DNA of 64,000 nucleotides from the NCBI GenBank assembly GCA_004193285.1, contig SECP01000032.1, forward strand, positions 1 through 64,000, written 5' to 3'. Shown one piece after another: positions 27,757 through 60,169 of this stretch (position 1 is the stretch's first letter; each line of letters opens with the position of its first letter). This DNA comes from Myxococcales bacterium (lineage in GTDB: Bacteria > Myxococcota_A > Polyangia > Polyangiales > Polyangiaceae). Under the pieces are notes generated by a model. That model worked only from the letters and a program-made list of their open reading frames with translations, had not been told where the DNA came from and did no database searches. The position numbers and the translations under genes were made by a program.

Positions 27757-27767
27757 ACGGCGTTCAG
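27753..27767. terminator. Compact hairpin across two convergent stop codons
   Basis: CTGAAC (27753-27758) and GTTCAG (27762-27767) form a 6-bp stem with a 3-base loop. The stem contains the TGA of both convergent glycosyltransferase genes. No T-runs follow, so a terminator role is only possible. Confidence 0.3.
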
Positions 27768-28951
27768 CTCGCTTCGCGCTTCGTGCGCACCCACTCGGAG
27801 GTGGCTCGCGGCGGCTTCTTCAGCTTCAGGGCTAGCTTCCACGCGACGTACACGGGGGCGAGCCCCAGATCTGCCAGGCCGTGCGCGCCGGTGCCGGAGA
27901 GCGACCAGCCGCGCAGCACGTACACGCCGACGCTGCCGAGCGCGCCGCCGAAGGCGACCACGGCCGCCCCGGGCGCCCCGACCAGCACCGCCCCGATGCC
28001 GGCCAGCTCGCCCAGAACCGCGCCCACCGCGATGGTCGAGAGGGGCGGAATGATCAGGTCCAGAGCGAGATCCAGCTGTACGCGATCGCGCTTGGCGAGC
28101 CCCGCCCGGAGCAGGCGCCAGGCATTCTCGCGGACGAGCGCCTTGCGCCCCTCTTCCCAGCGGCGGCGCTGGGTGTCGGCGGCGGCGGCGCTCGTTACCA
28201 TCTCCCCGTAAACGTGCGCTTCGTCCGTGTAAAAGACGCGGTGCCCCGCTTCACCGAGGCGCAGGCCGTACTCCACGTCTTCCACGACGGAGTAGGCGTG
28301 GTGCGGAACCTCGCGCAGCAGCTCGGTGGCGAAGCACATGCCGTTGCCGCGGAGACCGCACGATAGACCGAGCCGCTCCCGCGCGCGCGAGCGCACGACG
28401 TGGAACGCACCGAAGGCGATCGCGACGAGGCGAGTGCGCCAGGCGGCGTTGGGGTTGCGCACGGCGTAGTCCGCCTGCATCGCTTTCGCGCCCAGCTCGC
28501 GTCGAGCCGCGAAGGCGCGCAGCAGGTTGGGGGAGACGAGCGTGTCAGCGTCGATGACCACGACCGAGTCCACTCCTTCCGGCGTGGCCGAGAAGGCATG
28601 GTCCAGCGCGTAGCCTTTGCCGCGCTGAGTGAGGTCAGTGCGCTCCATGACGGTGGCGCCGGCAGCGCGGGCCTTTTCGGCGGTGTCGTCCGTGCAATTG
28701 TCGGCCACGACCACGACCTCGAACAGCTCGCGCGGGTAGTCCACGTTGAGCAAGCTTTGGACCGTCTCCGCGATGCCCGCGCTCTCGTTGTGCGCCGGCA
28801 CGACGAACCGAAAACGGCGGGTGGGCGTCTCCAGCGACGGCACGGGCAGGCGGGCGGAGAGCAGCGTGGCTACGCCCAGGTACCCGGCGGCGGTAAGCAC
28901 GGGCGCCCCCGCGACCACGAGCAGCACATCCAATCCAAGGCCCAAGGTCAC
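27764..28951 (-). CDS. Membrane glycosyltransferase family 2 (processive-type)
   Basis: 395 residues. N-terminal membrane helix (~8-30), a GT2 domain (~45-260) with VVPAHNES, the DXD-equivalent DADT and the QRRRW motif (here TQRRRWEEGR) that marks processive or cellulose-synthase-like enzymes, and two or three C-terminal helices (~285-370). Such proteins polymerise or add sugars while moving the chain through the membrane. Whether it is truly processive or a lone transferase like those of N-acetylglucosamine addition is not certain. It reads away from the deacetylase side, next to a phosphatase-like gene. Confidence 0.85.
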   Translation of the reverse strand: MTLGLGLDVLLVVAGAPVLTAAGYLGVATLLSARLPVPSLETPTRRFRFVVPAHNESAGIAETVQSLLNVDYPRELFEVVVVADNCTDDTAEKARAAGATVMERTDLTQRGKGYALDHAFSATPEGVDSVVVIDADTLVSPNLLRAFAARRELGAKAMQADYAVRNPNAAWRTRLVAIAFGAFHVVRSRARERLGLSCGLRGNGMCFATELLREVPHHAYSVVEDVEYGLRLGEAGHRVFYTDEAHVYGEMVTSAAAADTQRRRWEEGRKALVRENAWRLLRAGLAKRDRVQLDLALDLIIPPLSTIAVGAVLGELAGIGAVLVGAPGAAVVAFGGALGSVGVYVLRGWSLSGTGAHGLADLGLAPVYVAWKLALKLKKPPRATSEWVRTKREAS

Positions 28952-30034: not shown

Positions 30035-30082
30035 GATACTTCGCGCTTTGGCGTGTTCCATCTTGGAAAGAGCCGGCCTAAC

Positions 30083-30730
30083 ATGCGCGGTATCTTGTTT
30101 CCCCTCAAGCTCATTTGCGGCTCGCTCCGCTCGCTCGTCTCGGCCGGGCCCCTCTGCGCAGCGCTCGCGCTCGGAACCAGCGGCTGCGCCGGCGCCGGCC
30201 AATACGTTTGGTTCGGAGAGATGCCGCCTACCGAGCGCGCCAACCTCACCGGCGACTACGTCATCGGGGTGGGTGATTCGATCAGCATCCGCGTGTTCGA
30301 GCAAGAAGGCCTCTCCGGCGACGCGAAGATCCGCACCGACGGCAAGATCGCTCTGCCGCTGGTGGGCGAGATCGTCGCCGCGGGAAAGCGGCCGCTGGAG
30401 CTGTCGCGCGAGATCGAGACCGCGCTCAAGCAGTTCATCGTGAACCCGCGCGTCACCATCAACGTGGCCGCTTCTCAACCGATCTCCGTGACCGTCGTGG
30501 GCGAGGTCACGCGCATCGGCGTGCTCACCTTGGAGCCTCCCGCTCGGCTCGTCGAGGCGATGGCGCAGTCCGGCGGGGTAGGCGAGTTCGGGGACAAGGA
30601 CAAGATCTTCGTCTTGCGCCAGTTCCCTTCCTACAAGCGCATTCGCTTCACTTGGGACGCCATCCTTCGCAACCAAGACAACGCCGCGCAGTTCCCGCTT
30701 CGCACGGGCGACGTCATCGTCGTGGAGTGA
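30083..30730 (+). CDS. Short polysaccharide export (OPX/Wza-like) lipoprotein
   Basis: 215 residues. Signal peptide with lipobox SGC (Cys35). Residues ~55-135 are a polysaccharide-export (Poly_export) domain, from DYVIGVGDSISIRVFEQEGLSG to the NPRVTINV stretch; ~136-210 form one SLBB-like domain (VTVVGEVTRIGVLTLEPP). The chain ends at the last SLBB strand, RTGDVIVVE, so the C-terminal amphipathic helix and the extra domains with which E. coli Wza (about 360 residues mature) crosses the outer membrane are missing. It should thus act in the periplasm with a separate pore; a beta-barrel gene lies at 53663-54943. It is convergent with the flippase gene. Confidence 0.9.
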   Translation: MRGILFPLKLICGSLRSLVSAGPLCAALALGTSGCAGAGQYVWFGEMPPTERANLTGDYVIGVGDSISIRVFEQEGLSGDAKIRTDGKIALPLVGEIVAAGKRPLELSREIETALKQFIVNPRVTINVAASQPISVTVVGEVTRIGVLTLEPPARLVEAMAQSGGVGEFGDKDKIFVLRQFPSYKRIRFTWDAILRNQDNAAQFPLRTGDVIVVE

Positions 30731-48797: not shown

Positions 48798-49529
48798 GTG
48801 CGCTCGGTTGTGCGCTACTTTACCCGGCGATCTTGGATCATCCTTACCTCGCTCGGGTCACTCCTCCAGTTGCACGCACGGCGCGCGCTCACGCTGAGCG
48901 TCGGAGGAGGCCGCTTGGAAAGTAAGCCGCTGCTGGCTCGCCTCTGGCGCGCGGCCGCAGAAGAGGTGACGCCGCTCCTGTCGCGCAAGGCGCTGGCGGA
49001 CGTCGCCAACCACCTGCCTCAGTCTGCCTTCCACAGTACGCGCACGGCCTTATTTCGCGCCGCGGGCGTGACCATCGGAGCTCATTCGCTGATCCAAGGC
49101 GACATGCGGGTGACGGGGGTCAACAACCCGTGCGCGTACCTCACGATTGGCCACCACACGCTCATCACCGGCGGTCTCCATCTGGATCTCGGAGCGCCCG
49201 TGCACATCGGTAACGGCGTTCGCATCGGCCACGACGTCTCGATCTTGACCGTGAGCCACGCGGTCGGAGCGCCACGGCTGCGAGCGGGCACCAGCTTCTT
49301 CGCCGAGGTCGTGATCGAAGACGGCGCCTGGATCGCTTCGCGCGCGGTGATCTTGCCGGGCGTCACGATCGGCGCGGGAGCGATCGTGGCCGCAGGCGCG
49401 GTCGTGTCGCGAAGCGTCCCGAAACACACGCTCGTCGCCGGTGTCCCAGCGCGGGTGGTGCGCGAGCTGCCGGAAAACGAAGACCTGGAAGAGCGCGTGC
49501 CCGAGGGAGTTTGGGCGGTCCGCCACTGA
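48798..49529 (+). CDS. Left-handed beta-helix acyltransferase
   Basis: 243 residues from GTG 48798. A basic N-terminal helix region (~1-85) precedes hexapeptide repeats (~85-235): VTIGAHSLI, VHIGNGVRIG, VTIGAGAIVAAGAVVSRSVP and a closing VAGVPARVV. This is the LbH fold of serine/maltose O-acetyltransferases (CoA-dependent). It probably O-acetylates a sugar or the lipid-linked unit. The gene 1.4 kb downstream is a clear paralogue with about 70% identity over the beta-helix by eye. The 48669-48797 gap upstream is A/T-richer and may hold a promoter. Confidence 0.85.
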   Translation: MRSVVRYFTRRSWIILTSLGSLLQLHARRALTLSVGGGRLESKPLLARLWRAAAEEVTPLLSRKALADVANHLPQSAFHSTRTALFRAAGVTIGAHSLIQGDMRVTGVNNPCAYLTIGHHTLITGGLHLDLGAPVHIGNGVRIGHDVSILTVSHAVGAPRLRAGTSFFAEVVIEDGAWIASRAVILPGVTIGAGAIVAAGAVVSRSVPKHTLVAGVPARVVRELPENEDLEERVPEGVWAVRH

Positions 49530-49629
49530 GCGGCGGCGGATTCCAGCGCCGCTCCGCGGACTGGCGCTCGGGCCGAGATTCTTGGCGAACGCTCGCGTTC
49601 GCGCCTAGGGTTTGGTACGGAGTTTCAGT

Positions 49630-50151
49630 TTGACGAAGCAGCAGACACCCTCGGCCGTCGCCATCCCCCAGCAAACGGCGCTGGCGGAACGGCGGCAGAT
49701 CCAGGCGTGGACCGACCCGGATTGGCAACGCCTCTGGCTGACGCTCGACCACATGCCTTGGCGCACGCTGGCGCTAGTCCCCGGTGGGGTTGGGGGGCCG
49801 CCGGATCTCACCCTCACGCTTGCGGTCACGCTGTCACGCACCGGCATGAGTCATGTGGGAGCTCCCATCTTGGTGGCGGACGGCACGCAGGTGCCGCTCA
49901 ATCAGCTGAACGCATTCCTGGCGGACGTTCGAGCCTGCTGTGAAGGAGGAGAGCGCGTCATCGTCGCGCTCTCCGCCGTGAGCGAAAGTCCAACCACGGC
50001 GGCGATGGCGAAGGCGGCAGACGCCGCAGTGATGTGCATCATGCTGGGCCGCATGCGCTCGAGCGACGCCAAGCACACCGTGAAGGCGATTGGCGCGGCC
50101 AAATTCCTGGGGTCGGTCATCATCCGCCCGGACGGCACGCCCGCCAAGTAA
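49630..50151 (+). CDS. Degenerate P-loop protein related to bacterial tyrosine kinases (CpsD/Wzc C-terminal-like)
   Basis: 173 residues from a TTG at 49630 with GGAG at 49619-49622, 7 bases away; TTG 49612 is possible. The order LALVPGGVGGPPDLTLTLAVTLSRTG, then PILVADGTQVPLNQLN and, later, AADAAVMCIMLGRMRSSDAKHTVKAIGAAKFLGSVI, follows that of the BY-kinase domain (Walker A, Walker A', Walker B region and D-x-V-x-x-x-x-x-x-x strand). The Walker A Gly-Lys-Ser/Thr is gone (GGVGGPP), so ATP binding is unlikely. No Tyr cluster ends the protein. It may be a non-catalytic partner of the separate chain-length protein at 57061-58548. Confidence 0.6.
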   Translation: MTKQQTPSAVAIPQQTALAERRQIQAWTDPDWQRLWLTLDHMPWRTLALVPGGVGGPPDLTLTLAVTLSRTGMSHVGAPILVADGTQVPLNQLNAFLADVRACCEGGERVIVALSAVSESPTTAAMAKAADAAVMCIMLGRMRSSDAKHTVKAIGAAKFLGSVIIRPDGTPAK

Positions 50152-50228: not shown

Positions 50229-50876
50229 ATGCGCGAAAGTACCATTCTCACGTCCAACGGTTCTGGCTTGCTGTCGCGCGCTGCACGCGCCCTCGCGGAG
50301 GATTTGGAACCGCTCACTTCGCGGCAAGCGCTGGCGCGCCTGTCCGAGGTGCTGCCCGCCTCCGGCTTCTTTCGAATGCGGACGGCCATGCTGCGCGCTG
50401 CGGGTGTGAAGATCGGGTCGCGCTCGCTCATCCAAGGAAAGCTGCGGCTCACCGGTAGCGGCAACCCCTGCGAGCTCCTCACCATCGGAGAGTTCACGCT
50501 CGTGACCGGCGGTCTGCACGTGGATTTGGGCGCCCCCGTGCGCATCGGGGACTCGGTTCGCATCGGGCACGACGTCTCTTTGCTCACGATCAACCACGTC
50601 GTCGGTCCGCACTACCTGCGCGCCGGCACCAGCTACTGCGGCAAAATCGTGATCGAAGACGGCTCCTGGCTCGCCTCGCGCTGCACCGTCCTGCCGGGGG
50701 TTACCATCGGCGCCGGCGCAGTCGTTGCGGCCGGCTCCGTCGTGACCCGCAGCGTGCCCAAGCACACGCTGGTGGCGGGCGTGCCCGCACGCGTCGTCCG
50801 CGAGCTGTCCGAGGACGGCGAGGACGGTCCGTCGTCGATGCGCTTTCCTTCTACGAAGCCACCGTCGGCGGGCTAG
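50229..50876 (+). CDS. Left-handed beta-helix acyltransferase, paralogue of 48798-49529
   Basis: 215 residues from ATG 50229. Same layout as its paralogue, with hexapeptide repeats from VKIGSRSLI to VTIGAGAVVAAGSVVTRSVPKHTLVAGVPARVV, but a shorter N-terminus (it lacks ~30 residues) and a different Ser/Pro-rich tail. The identical run SVPKHTLVAGVPARVVREL in both supports recent duplication around the degenerate kinase gene. Its 3' end overlaps the convergent glycosyltransferase gene by 26 bases. Confidence 0.85.
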   Translation: MRESTILTSNGSGLLSRAARALAEDLEPLTSRQALARLSEVLPASGFFRMRTAMLRAAGVKIGSRSLIQGKLRLTGSGNPCELLTIGEFTLVTGGLHVDLGAPVRIGDSVRIGHDVSLLTINHVVGPHYLRAGTSYCGKIVIEDGSWLASRCTVLPGVTIGAGAVVAAGSVVTRSVPKHTLVAGVPARVVRELSEDGEDGPSSMRFPSTKPPSAG

Positions 50877-53662: not shown

Positions 53663-54943
53663 CTAGCGCTTACGACCAGCGATGGGCGCCTCGTAGCCGA
53701 AGGTAACCCCGAGGAACGCCACGTAGCTGAGCGGAATCGTCGTCTGGTCTTGGTAAGCCTGCTCGGCCACCGTGGCGCCCGCGTCCGCCTGTACCCATTT
53801 GGAAAGGCGGTAAGAAATGCCGGCGTTTGCCGACGTGCTGTTGAAAGCGCCCGCATTGTTTCCGGAGTCCGCGATCGACACGGCCACGCTGGCGCCGAGC
53901 CGCGCGGAGAACCGGTCGCGCGCCCAGCCAGTGTTGCCGTAAACGCCGAGCCGGGGATCCACGGTGGCGCGCAGAGGGTCCAGGGACGGCGCGGAATAGC
54001 CGCCGACCGCGATGACCCAGGTCCCGCGCGCCAGCTTGCGAGAGTGGTTGAGAAAAGCGCCCAAAGTCGGAAATACGCTGTAGGCGCTGTAGTCCCCGAA
54101 TGGCGTTCGACTCGCGCTCATACCGGCGCTCAGCGTGCCGAACGTTTGCTTGTCGAAGCGATGATTCCAGCTCTCGGTCGCGAGTAAAGAGGTGACGCGG
54201 GTTCCGAGGGTGGACCATGCGTGCTGCAGCGTCACGTTCGTGCTGAAAGCGTCTCGCGTCGAAAGCAAGTAAAGGTACACACCGTTCAGGCCGACGGTGG
54301 TGCCGCGGATGTAGGGATAGCTCTCGCGCGCGCCTTCATCCAGCCCCCCCGCGATGGTGTGAGTTCCTAGCGCTGCGAGCCGCAGCGGCTTCGTTATCTG
54401 CTGCGCGACCGTGAGCGAGTTGGTCAAGGTGCCGTAGCGCACGGGACCCTCCACGACCGTGCGCTGCAGCTGGCCACCAGGAGTCACCGTCGACATCCCG
54501 GTCGGGTTGGTGGGCGTGGTCGGGTTCGCGGGGGTGGGTGACGGCGCGGTGGGCGTCGCGGGCGTGACGCCTTCACCGGGGCCCGGTGCGGGCGCGCGAG
54601 TCGCAGCCGTTGCCCCAAGCGCCTGAGTGCGGAAGTTCACTTCACCCCAAGCCCCGGAGGTCGTGAGGCTGACGCTCGTGCGCTTGTAGGTGTACGCCTG
54701 GCTCACCGACGCGAGCTGATAAACCAGCAGATCTCGCGGCTTGGATTCCAGTGGGACCAATGTCAGGGTCGCCCCGTAACCGAACGTCACGTTGTAGCGA
54801 GGCCACGCGAGCTGCAGCCGCACCGCAGGACGCGTAGCACCCTCGTAGCGGTAAGGGCTCGGCTCGTAATAGCGAGCCTCCGTGCGGTCGACGACGCCGA
54901 CCGTGACGAGCTGCGCGAGCAGGGGCGCTAAGAGAGCCGACAT
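53663..54943 (-). CDS. Outer-membrane beta-barrel protein of the polysaccharide locus
   Basis: 426 residues from ATG 54943, which directly follows an in-frame stop. The N-terminus (LLAPLLAQLVTVGVVDRTEA) is a short hydrophobic stretch with no positive charge, a weak signal peptide. The rest alternates polar and hydrophobic residues in ~10-residue strands with Tyr/Trp/Phe at the edges (VRLQLAWPRYNVTFGYGATLTLV), breaks at a Pro/Thr-rich loop (~115-145) and ends in a strand VAFLGVTFGYEAPIAGRKR. This matches a barrel of about 16-18 strands. In Myxococcus the WzpX/WzpS/WzpB barrels act with short OPX proteins; by gene context the same is proposed here. Confidence 0.75.
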   Translation of the reverse strand: MSALLAPLLAQLVTVGVVDRTEARYYEPSPYRYEGATRPAVRLQLAWPRYNVTFGYGATLTLVPLESKPRDLLVYQLASVSQAYTYKRTSVSLTTSGAWGEVNFRTQALGATAATRAPAPGPGEGVTPATPTAPSPTPANPTTPTNPTGMSTVTPGGQLQRTVVEGPVRYGTLTNSLTVAQQITKPLRLAALGTHTIAGGLDEGARESYPYIRGTTVGLNGVYLYLLSTRDAFSTNVTLQHAWSTLGTRVTSLLATESWNHRFDKQTFGTLSAGMSASRTPFGDYSAYSVFPTLGAFLNHSRKLARGTWVIAVGGYSAPSLDPLRATVDPRLGVYGNTGWARDRFSARLGASVAVSIADSGNNAGAFNSTSANAGISYRLSKWVQADAGATVAEQAYQDQTTIPLSYVAFLGVTFGYEAPIAGRKR

Positions 54944-57060: not shown

Positions 57061-58548
57061 TCATTTGTCCGTGCGTTCCGGGAGGCGCAGGTCGGCGAGC
57101 ACCGGCAGCTGAAAGTGCTCCACTTGCCAGCGCTCGACCAGGACCCCGCGCTTGAGCTCGAGCAAAACCGGAATGGCGAAGCCGATCAGGAGCGAGAGCA
57201 CGATGCCTGCGATCGCCAGCACGGGCAGCGCCGGCTTGATGGGCTTGGAGGGCTCTTCTACTGGGATCACGACCTGGTAGCGGTGATTGAACGCCGCCTG
57301 AGCGGTATCCAGCGCGAGCTTGGCGCCGCGCACTTCGTCGCGCAGGGACGCGTAGCGGACGACCGCACCGGACATTTGTGCGGACAGCGCGGGGTCGATC
57401 TCCGAGCTCTCCAGCAAACGCACGAGGTCGGCCGGGAGCATCTCGGTGGTGGGGCCCACGGTGGCGCCGCCGAGGGACCCTCCACGCGAAGGACCGAGGG
57501 GCCCGGTTTTCGCCATCGCGTCGCGCTGCTTGACCTGCACCTCCATATCGCTCACCTCCGAGCGAAGAAGCGCGAGGTCGGAAGACACGTCCTGCGCTGC
57601 GTTCAGGCGCTCCGCTTGCGTGATCACCTGCGGGTGATTCGGGGTCAGGTGCAGCTTCAGCTCGTCCAGCTTGGCGCGCTCTTGGCTGATGCGAGAGCTA
57701 CGCTCGCCCTCGGCGGCGGCAAGCTTCGCCTTGGCGGCGAGCAGCTTCTCGCGTAGCTCCGGCAGCACGCCGTCCGCGGAGGGGGTGGCGGGCCTCGGGC
57801 TGCCACCGAACGACGCCACGGAGCGGAGCGTCGGTGCCCCCGACTTACCGGTCGTTTTCGTCAAATCTGCGGCTTTGGCCTCGAGGGACGCGCGCATTTG
57901 CTGCGCGAGAGCGTCGATCTCTTCGCGCAGCTTTGCGGAGTGAGAGTCCAAGATCCCCATCTTCTCCTGGAACGCGGAGATTTCGGCGCGGTGCCGCAGC
58001 TCGAGGAAGCCGTCTTGCGCGGCCTTGGCGAGCTCCGCCGTAGTTGCGGCGTCGTTCCAATCCACTTTGATCTCGAGGGTGTCGCCCTTCGCGCCGACGG
58101 CGAGGCGGTTCTCGAGCGTGGGCACCAAGATCGCCAGGAGCGTCTTGTCGTCCAGCGGCCCGAAGAGGGCGGCCATGATGCGGTCCTTCGTGCGCAGCAG
58201 AGGAGGGCGACGCGGCTGATACTTGTGCACCAGGTCCGTCTTTTTGACGAGCTGCTCCAGGTTCTCCCGGCGCATCATGAGCCCCTCCGCCCCCACGAGC
58301 GGGCGACCACCGCCATTGCCGTCCAACACCGCATTTTCCACGGTCATCAGGACGGTGGTGCACGAATAGGTGCGCGGAATGAACTTCACGACCAAGCCCG
58401 TGAGGACCAGCCCGAGGAAGACGACCACGCCGATCACGGCCCGGTGCGCGCGAATCGCGTGCTTGGCGAAGATCAAGTAGCTCTTGAGCATCTCCGCGTT
58501 GAAGGAAGGGCCCGAGCTCTCTTCGACCTCTTCGGTTTCGTCTGCCAT
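57061..58548 (-). CDS. Polysaccharide co-polymerase (Wzz-like chain-length protein) without kinase domain
   Basis: 495 residues. Membrane helix 1 at ~37-57 and helix 2 at ~440-462, with a long periplasmic region between them, rich in coiled coil (~190-330; for example LREEIDALAQQMRASLEAKAADL and DELKLHLTPNHPQVI, the latter a known Wzz-family motif). A Pro-rich EEPSKPIKPALPV precedes helix 2, as in PCP proteins. The C-terminus stops ~30 residues later, so the cytoplasmic BY-kinase domain of Wzc is missing. It sets chain length with Wzy and likely contacts the OPX protein. Confidence 0.88.
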   Translation of the reverse strand: MADETEEVEESSGPSFNAEMLKSYLIFAKHAIRAHRAVIGVVVFLGLVLTGLVVKFIPRTYSCTTVLMTVENAVLDGNGGGRPLVGAEGLMMRRENLEQLVKKTDLVHKYQPRRPPLLRTKDRIMAALFGPLDDKTLLAILVPTLENRLAVGAKGDTLEIKVDWNDAATTAELAKAAQDGFLELRHRAEISAFQEKMGILDSHSAKLREEIDALAQQMRASLEAKAADLTKTTGKSGAPTLRSVASFGGSPRPATPSADGVLPELREKLLAAKAKLAAAEGERSSRISQERAKLDELKLHLTPNHPQVITQAERLNAAQDVSSDLALLRSEVSDMEVQVKQRDAMAKTGPLGPSRGGSLGGATVGPTTEMLPADLVRLLESSEIDPALSAQMSGAVVRYASLRDEVRGAKLALDTAQAAFNHRYQVVIPVEEPSKPIKPALPVLAIAGIVLSLLIGFAIPVLLELKRGVLVERWQVEHFQLPVLADLRLPERTDK

Positions 58549-58669: not shown

Positions 58670-60169
58670 CTACGCGGTCTGCCGCGGGCGAAGAGCGCTC
58701 GGCCAGGCGCCGCTCTTCACGGCGAGCTTGCAGGCGATGGCGAGCGAGGGCGCGATCAGAAACACCCCCGTGAAGGTGCCGAGACCTAGATCACCGAAGC
58801 ACTGCACGTAATAGATGAGGATGGTGCCGAACGAGACCAGCGCCGCTGCCTTGTCGTACGGCTCCTTGCAGTGATGGTACGCGCGCACGCCGAAGTACAC
58901 GCCCGCGACCCACAGCAGGGTCAGGCCGGTGAACCCGACGTAACCGCCGTAGCACCAGATACCCAAGATGCTGTTGTGAGGGATGAATCGCTCCAGGATG
59001 TAGTCCACTTGAGGCAGCGGCCACACCTCCCAAAAGCCGTGCCCATAACCGATGCCGACGAGCGGCTTGGTGCGGATGGTGTAGATGAGGTTGAAGTTCT
59101 CGAGGTCGCGCCAGGCGGTGGACTCGTCTGAATCCGAGTCGACCGCGGAACGAATGATCTGCACCGGCTTGAAGGCGCCGCCCTTCTGATTCCAGCCTAC
59201 CGCTACGTACGCCACTCCGACCGGGACCATGAACAACGCAAACCGCTGGAGCTTGCGTTTGAACGCGTTCGGCTCGGTGATCAAGTAGAGGGCGGCGAAC
59301 ACGAGGATGATCTGCACCCACACCATGCGCCGGTCGTTTGCGACCATACCCCCGAACAGGATTGGTAGCAGGAGCACCGCCAGGCGAAGAGCCTTGGGCC
59401 CCGTGCGCTGGATGATCAGCGCGACGATGAGCACGACCGCGGCGCCGAACAACATCGAGTCGTGGTGAGTCGTCGTGTACGGCAGGTCCGATTCACCGCT
59501 GATTGGATCCACCGTCGCGGGGACGATGGCGCGAACGTACATGGAGATCAGCGCCCGAATCGTCGCGGCGACCAGGATGACCTTGCCCACCGACATGTAG
59601 TCTTTGGGCTGGGTGAACGCGGCCTGGCACAGCAGAAAAACCGCTGGCAAGTACATCACGCGGTCGATCTGCCAGACCGCCATGGAGCTGTCGCCACCTC
59701 CGTTGAGCTTGCCGATCACGAACGTGAACGCGATGGTCGCGTAGCACAGGTGAGCGAGCTTGATCATCGGCTTGGGCGTGGGGATGCCGCGCGAGCGGCC
59801 GCGCAGCTTCACGAACCAGTGGACGCCGGCCGCCGCGAGCATCAAATCCATGCCGCCGAAGAACCAGGGGCCGCCGATCACGGTCTTGAAGTGCGTGAGC
59901 AGCAGCGCGCCCACCATGTAAAACGGCGACTGCCATTGCCCGGCGGCCGGCATCTCGGACGGGTTCTCGAGCGTGAGCGCGAAGAACATCAGCGTCAGCA
60001 TCGTGGAGCGCAGCGGCGCTCGCAGCACGCAGTAGATCCCCAGGACGATGCAGATGGGCGCGACGACCCAGCCCAGGGCTCCAACCCCCAAGAGTGATGT
60101 CAGCGCTGCCAGCGTGATCAGCAGCGCGAACGCGGCCTTGACGTCTCCGCTGACCCTAGGCTCGGCCAT
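58670..60169 (-). CDS. O-antigen polymerase/ligase-type membrane protein (Wzy-like)
   Basis: 499 residues with about 11-13 membrane helices and one long periplasmic loop at ~330-420 holding the short PHNSIL motif (RFIPHNSILGIWCYGG), typical of the O-antigen ligase/polymerase (Wzy_C) family, whose conserved His is needed for activity. It joins repeat units into the chain. The small membrane gene begins exactly where this gene's start ends, and the gap to the chain-length gene is 121 bases. Confidence 0.88.
   Translation of the reverse strand: MAEPRVSGDVKAAFALLITLAALTSLLGVGALGWVVAPICIVLGIYCVLRAPLRSTMLTLMFFALTLENPSEMPAAGQWQSPFYMVGALLLTHFKTVIGGPWFFGGMDLMLAAAGVHWFVKLRGRSRGIPTPKPMIKLAHLCYATIAFTFVIGKLNGGGDSSMAVWQIDRVMYLPAVFLLCQAAFTQPKDYMSVGKVILVAATIRALISMYVRAIVPATVDPISGESDLPYTTTHHDSMLFGAAVVLIVALIIQRTGPKALRLAVLLLPILFGGMVANDRRMVWVQIILVFAALYLITEPNAFKRKLQRFALFMVPVGVAYVAVGWNQKGGAFKPVQIIRSAVDSDSDESTAWRDLENFNLIYTIRTKPLVGIGYGHGFWEVWPLPQVDYILERFIPHNSILGIWCYGGYVGFTGLTLLWVAGVYFGVRAYHHCKEPYDKAAALVSFGTILIYYVQCFGDLGLGTFTGVFLIAPSLAIACKLAVKSGAWPSALRPRQTA

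Follow-up and report, generated by a model that had tools for sequence, protein, structure and literature searches.

Organization of the eps locus

The window analysed here, a stretch of 64,000 nucleotides from a Polyangiaceae-like genome of 8.66 Mb, contains genes resembling five components of the EPS pathway of M. xanthus, all recognized with NCBIfam models built for that pathway and all matching below the equivalog cut-offs. These are an EpsU-like GT2 glycosyltransferase (27764–28951, minus strand; NF041865, E = 7e-147), an EpsY-like OPX export protein (30071–30730, plus strand; NF041843, E = 9.4e-55), a weak EpsX-like outer-membrane export protein (53663–54943, minus strand; NF041842, E = 8.1e-7, with a score of 28 bits where the cut-off is 550), an EpsV-like PCP-2 co-polymerase of 495 aa (57061–58548, minus strand; NF041864, E = 3.6e-47) and a Wzy_EPS-like repeat-unit polymerase (58670–60169, minus strand; NF041870, E = 1.8e-104). 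Judged from these matches, the window carries a predicted eps locus of the M. xanthus type. AlphaFold2 models the EpsV-like protein with a pair of TM-like helices around a large periplasmic part of coiled-coil structure and with a short cytoplasmic tail, the C-terminal tail being VERWQVEHFQLPVLADLRLPERTDK. Its best PDB matches in Foldseek were the co-polymerases Wzc (E = 5e-10) and WzzE. Transmembrane helices, co-polymerase fold and short tail are those of a PCP-2 without kinase, and both domain models and topology confirm an earlier sequence-only reading, according to which the chain-length protein of the locus lacks a kinase domain.

On the plus strand, an ecpK-like gene runs from a TTG start at 49630 to a stop at 50151 and encodes a protein of 173 aa (P0001), a putative stand-alone BY pseudokinase in which the P-loop is lost and tyrosine is absent; a Shine-Dalgarno-like GGAG lies 7 nt 5' of the start (49619–49622, plus strand). 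A single-sequence search with P0001 detected homologues in 17 of 59 related genomes, and a profile added four more genomes. The closest relative, encoded by a Polyangiaceae MAG (L005), shares 62% identity over residues 1–169, with a dS of 2.19 and a dN of 0.29 between the two genes. These values indicate a functioning gene under purifying selection, and together with the conservation they rule out pseudogene decay. A further match on contig C79 of the same genome (E = 0.003) was discarded, being antisense to a serine-hydrolase-like gene and containing a stop.

The gene is flanked by two hexapeptide acyltransferase genes (48798–49529 and 50229–50876) with 67% identity over 186 residues. In L005, one hexapeptide acyltransferase gene is located 3' of the pseudokinase gene and an epsY-like gene immediately 5' of it, and the comparison suggests a duplication around the pseudokinase gene.

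A stand-alone protein with the predicted fold of BY kinases

Enzymes of the BY-kinase type normally switch bacterial polysaccharide machinery on and off through phosphorylation, and polysaccharide co-polymerases are thought to require cycles of tyrosine phosphorylation. In M. xanthus, deletion, two-hybrid and proteomic evidence has assigned to EcpK (MXAN_7447, WzeX), a stand-alone BY pseudokinase of five strands and five helices, a role in EPS production, for which it is needed, and the binding of a kinase-less EpsV (PMC12004946, 2025); part of the same paper describes orthologues without Walker motifs in other myxobacteria.

The AlphaFold2 model of P0001 (mean pLDDT 90.9, pTM 0.81) shows a Rossmann-like arrangement of five strands and five helices. 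When the model was compared with known structures by VIA-align, the best 19 entries were all BY kinases (Z 14.8–12.6 over 139–149 residues), followed after a gap of two Z units by SRP GTPases and MinD (Z of at most 10.6). The BY kinases matching the fold include Wzc, CapAB, Etk, VpsO and BceF, and in most Wzc rows the match starts at Wzc residue 496. The best six Foldseek matches were BceF, Wzc (four chains) and CapAB, with E-values from 1.8e-3 to 3e-3, so modest that they were counted against an EcpK-type reading of the protein. The same holds for the Pfam and NCBIfam models, which gave only chance-level matches to P0001, and a single-sequence search of the PDB with P0001 returned no match. 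Taken as a set, the family members matched EpsG and XrtA tyrosine-kinase models weakly (E between 0.009 and 0.06), and a PDB profile search with the family reached the BY kinase VpsO at no better than an E-value of 0.48. Since the sequence and PDB profile searches are weak, the kinship rests on the structure and on the profile-profile comparison, in which hhalign aligned the family with five BY-kinase-like proteins of the same and related genomes at an E-value of 2e-8 and a probability of 95%, whereas the controls, 20 profiles with shuffled columns and one that was reversed, reached at most 0.4%.

On the strength of the model, P0001 is predicted to have the BY-kinase fold in a stand-alone protein, as EcpK does. 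The sequence-only reading had proposed just such a fold for a 173-residue protein encoded at 49630–50151 and had expected CapB, Wzc and MinD-type proteins among the top fold matches; coordinates, gene conservation, structure ranking and profile match bear it out, with BY kinases such as Wzc and CapAB heading the ranking and MinD further down.

Loss of the active site

At the position of the Walker A motif, P0001 carries the loop VPGGVGGPPDLTL. In an alignment of 20 family members this loop, which follows the first strand, is variable in length and sequence (GGVGGPPDL, AGAGAPEDF, SSKRDPDG, SSQRLPEG and ASKGVGT are among the variants), and a P-loop Lys-Ser/Thr was found at the Walker A site in none of them. 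The profile alignment places the P-loop Lys of BY kinases opposite Thr61 of P0001 and the Walker B Asp opposite Ala113. The Walker A' motif is only partly lost, its Asp being retained as D84 in all 20 members. About 50 residues that separate Walker A' from the next helix in BY kinases are absent from P0001, leaving a compact core. P0001 has no tyrosine at all; the other 19 members carry between zero and two, and none has a tyrosine cluster. Both the Walker A Lys-Ser/Thr and the C-terminal tyrosine cluster of active BY kinases of the CapB/Wzc type are thus missing, and the nonfunctional Walker A/B and the lack of a Tyr-rich C-terminal tail are shared with EcpK. These observations uphold what had been read from the sequence, namely that GGVGGPP stands in place of Walker A without Lys-Ser/Thr and that there is no tyrosine cluster; the comparison of orthologues, which had been suggested as a check, showed that the P-loop Lys, the Walker B Asp and the tyrosine cluster are missing throughout the family.

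The loops of two members, ASKGVGTL in L014 and ASKGVATL in L040, look like eroded versions of a deviant Walker A of the KGGVGKT kind and may be a vestige of a P-loop enzyme from which the family descended. Both proteins had also been flagged by a P-loop regular expression, but the GKT string responsible is located elsewhere in the protein.

Since D84 is invariant, some form of ligand binding is conceivable, and this was counted against the EcpK-type reading. P0001 could accordingly be a scaffold of BY-kinase fold that still binds a nucleotide or another ligand through the rebuilt loop and D84, the state of the ligand controlling the assembly of EpsV, and the degenerate loop GASKGVGTL of L014, which recalls a deviant Walker A, would fit such a function. 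We consider it improbable, however, as the loop is constant neither in length nor in sequence, the P-loop Lys is gone in all members, the Walker B Asp is aligned with Ala and D84 may be structural.

Intact BY kinases of the genome

The presence of an intact kinase in the eps locus of the window is ruled out, TIGR01007 giving zero matches on its contig (C55). Across the genome, the BY-kinase model matched best to two fused Wzc-type proteins on contigs C88 and C104, each with an intact P-loop and a co-polymerase part of its own. The fused kinase L023 (G000, contig C104) has the P-loop NEGDGKTT and no Tyr-rich C-terminal tail. The existence of these two enzymes raises the idea that P0001 is a partner of one of them and modulates it in trans. 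Yet both are fused to a co-polymerase of their own and encoded on contigs other than that of the window, and in M. xanthus EPS changes little when the active BY kinases are lost (PMC12004946), so that a partnership of this kind appears very unlikely.

Genomic association of the pseudokinase with EpsV

The family, Wzy_EPS and EpsV were searched in a phylum sample of 377 genomes. Twelve genomes gave a strong family match, and exactly the same 12 gave a Wzy_EPS match with E below 1e-30; EpsV was matched with E below 1e-20 in 11 of them. None of the genomes in the searched phylum sample scored above the EpsV or Wzy_EPS equivalog cut-offs, and the EpsV model NF041864 also gave matches in Caulobacter, among the control genomes. 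Follow-up revealed EpsV in the twelfth genome (in pieces) and in nine further family-bearing genomes. EpsV therefore accompanies the family in 21 of 21 Polyangiales genomes, one of them with EpsV in pieces, these genomes being related and not representing 21 independent events. Among five relatives without the family, two of which are incomplete genomes, EpsV was found in none.

The distance between the two genes differs from genome to genome. They are immediate neighbours on one strand in L079 and L082, with the pseudokinase gene 3' of epsV, and lie within 2 kb of each other in L077, L078 and L081. In the window the two are 6.9 kb apart on opposite strands, which was counted against the EcpK-type reading. 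P0001, like EcpK, is encoded alongside an EpsV-type PCP-2 without kinase domain. Its putative link to EpsV draws support from the complete co-occurrence of the two and from the genomes in which their genes are adjacent. The acyltransferase neighbours are inconstant between genomes. This bears on the idea that P0001 has another ancestry, being a Rossmann/P-loop-like protein present in the locus by chance or having another job, for instance with the flanking acyltransferases. That P0001 has no significant single-sequence match in Pfam or NCBIfam and lies between two paralogous hexapeptide acyltransferases would be in agreement with it, but the lead of the BY kinases in the structure ranking, the profile match to them and the constancy of EpsV beside inconstant acyltransferases leave it hardly any probability.

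The alignment of 19 EpsV tails showed that they are conserved, the commonest motif being E-x-W-Q-V-x-x-x-LPVLA shortly before the C-terminus. A like segment, ARSFVDGLPVFASVPYR, precedes the kinase domain in the fused Wzc-type protein on C104. Because of this resemblance, EpsV and the pseudokinase look like one dead kinase domain split in two, in which EpsV seems to retain the first helix and strand and the pseudokinase the remainder. For M. xanthus, the C-terminus of EpsV has been described as occupying a groove of EcpK, where it takes the place that the first helix and strand have in the Wzc kinase (PMC12004946).

Proposed function and comparison with known systems

Taken together, we propose that P0001 is very probably a catalytically dead stand-alone BY-kinase domain, a pseudokinase of the EcpK type serving the Wzx/Wzy pathway of EPS. 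By analogy with EcpK and EpsV of M. xanthus (PMC12004946), it most likely acts as a docking partner of the neighbouring chain-length protein EpsV. The cytoplasmic tail of EpsV, WQVEHFQLPVLADLRLP, would dock on the pseudokinase as its missing helix and strand, and the two proteins would jointly rebuild a base shaped like a BY kinase beneath the co-polymerase oligomer. Binding and release would replace tyrosine phosphorylation and support the assembly cycle needed for polymerization and export. For EcpK also, such a binding and release cycle has been put forward as a proposal (PMC12004946).

The pseudokinase interpretation made from the sequence is therefore supported as essentially right, and it is not new in kind, the arrangement having been published in 2025. 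P0001, compared here with EcpK by its published description, is best classed as a new and divergent Polyangiaceae member of the same kind. Both are stand-alone proteins of five strands and five helices with the BY fold, without working Walker A/B or tyrosine tail, in a system whose eps locus encodes a PCP-2 EpsV with no kinase domain. The gene positions differ, ecpK belonging to a second cluster whereas the window gene stands among acyltransferases near epsV and its counterpart in L005 next to epsY. In addition, the P0001 model ends eight residues past the last strand, without the Lys/Arg-rich C-terminal helix of EcpK. The predicted absence of this basic helix was counted against the EcpK-type reading, although the helix occurs in EcpK and several, not all, orthologues and is not a defining feature (PMC12004946). 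In EcpK, Glu pockets including the conserved E59 receive Arg residues of the EpsV tail (PMC12004946). It is conceivable, if rather unlikely, that the Polyangiales pseudokinases arose separately, or constitute a branch of their own, among the kinase-dead partners of PCP-2 proteins, with a split domain whose first helix and strand come from the EpsV tail, a shortened core without the membrane-facing basic helix of EcpK and perhaps a new ligand at D84.

According to the description in PMC12004946, HfsB of Caulobacter crescentus is likewise a BY pseudokinase, paired with the kinase-less PCP-2 HfsA in holdfast synthesis, a different polysaccharide pathway in a different lineage. CapB of S. aureus, Wzc, Etk, VpsO and BceF share with P0001 the fold (Z 12.6–14.8) and the co-polymerase tail or segment beside the kinase domain; unlike P0001, they have retained P-loop Lys, Walker B and tyrosine cluster and autophosphorylate. 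In another Myxococcota family (G118), two minus-strand genes of L042 (1486–2115 and 2112–3191) form a pair in which a stand-alone BY-kinase-like gene comes after that of a co-polymerase. The BY-kinase-like protein has the Walker A GSVAGEGVTT (Lys replaced by Val), keeps A' and B and has no tyrosine tail, and the two probably form an independent pseudokinase pair.

The adjacent gene pairs of L079 and L082 offer compact pairs for structural work. In every genome examined the kinase is dead and is accompanied by the co-polymerase, which supports the class of phosphorylation-independent PCP-2 proteins proposed in 2025, and the family described here extends this class within the Polyangiales.
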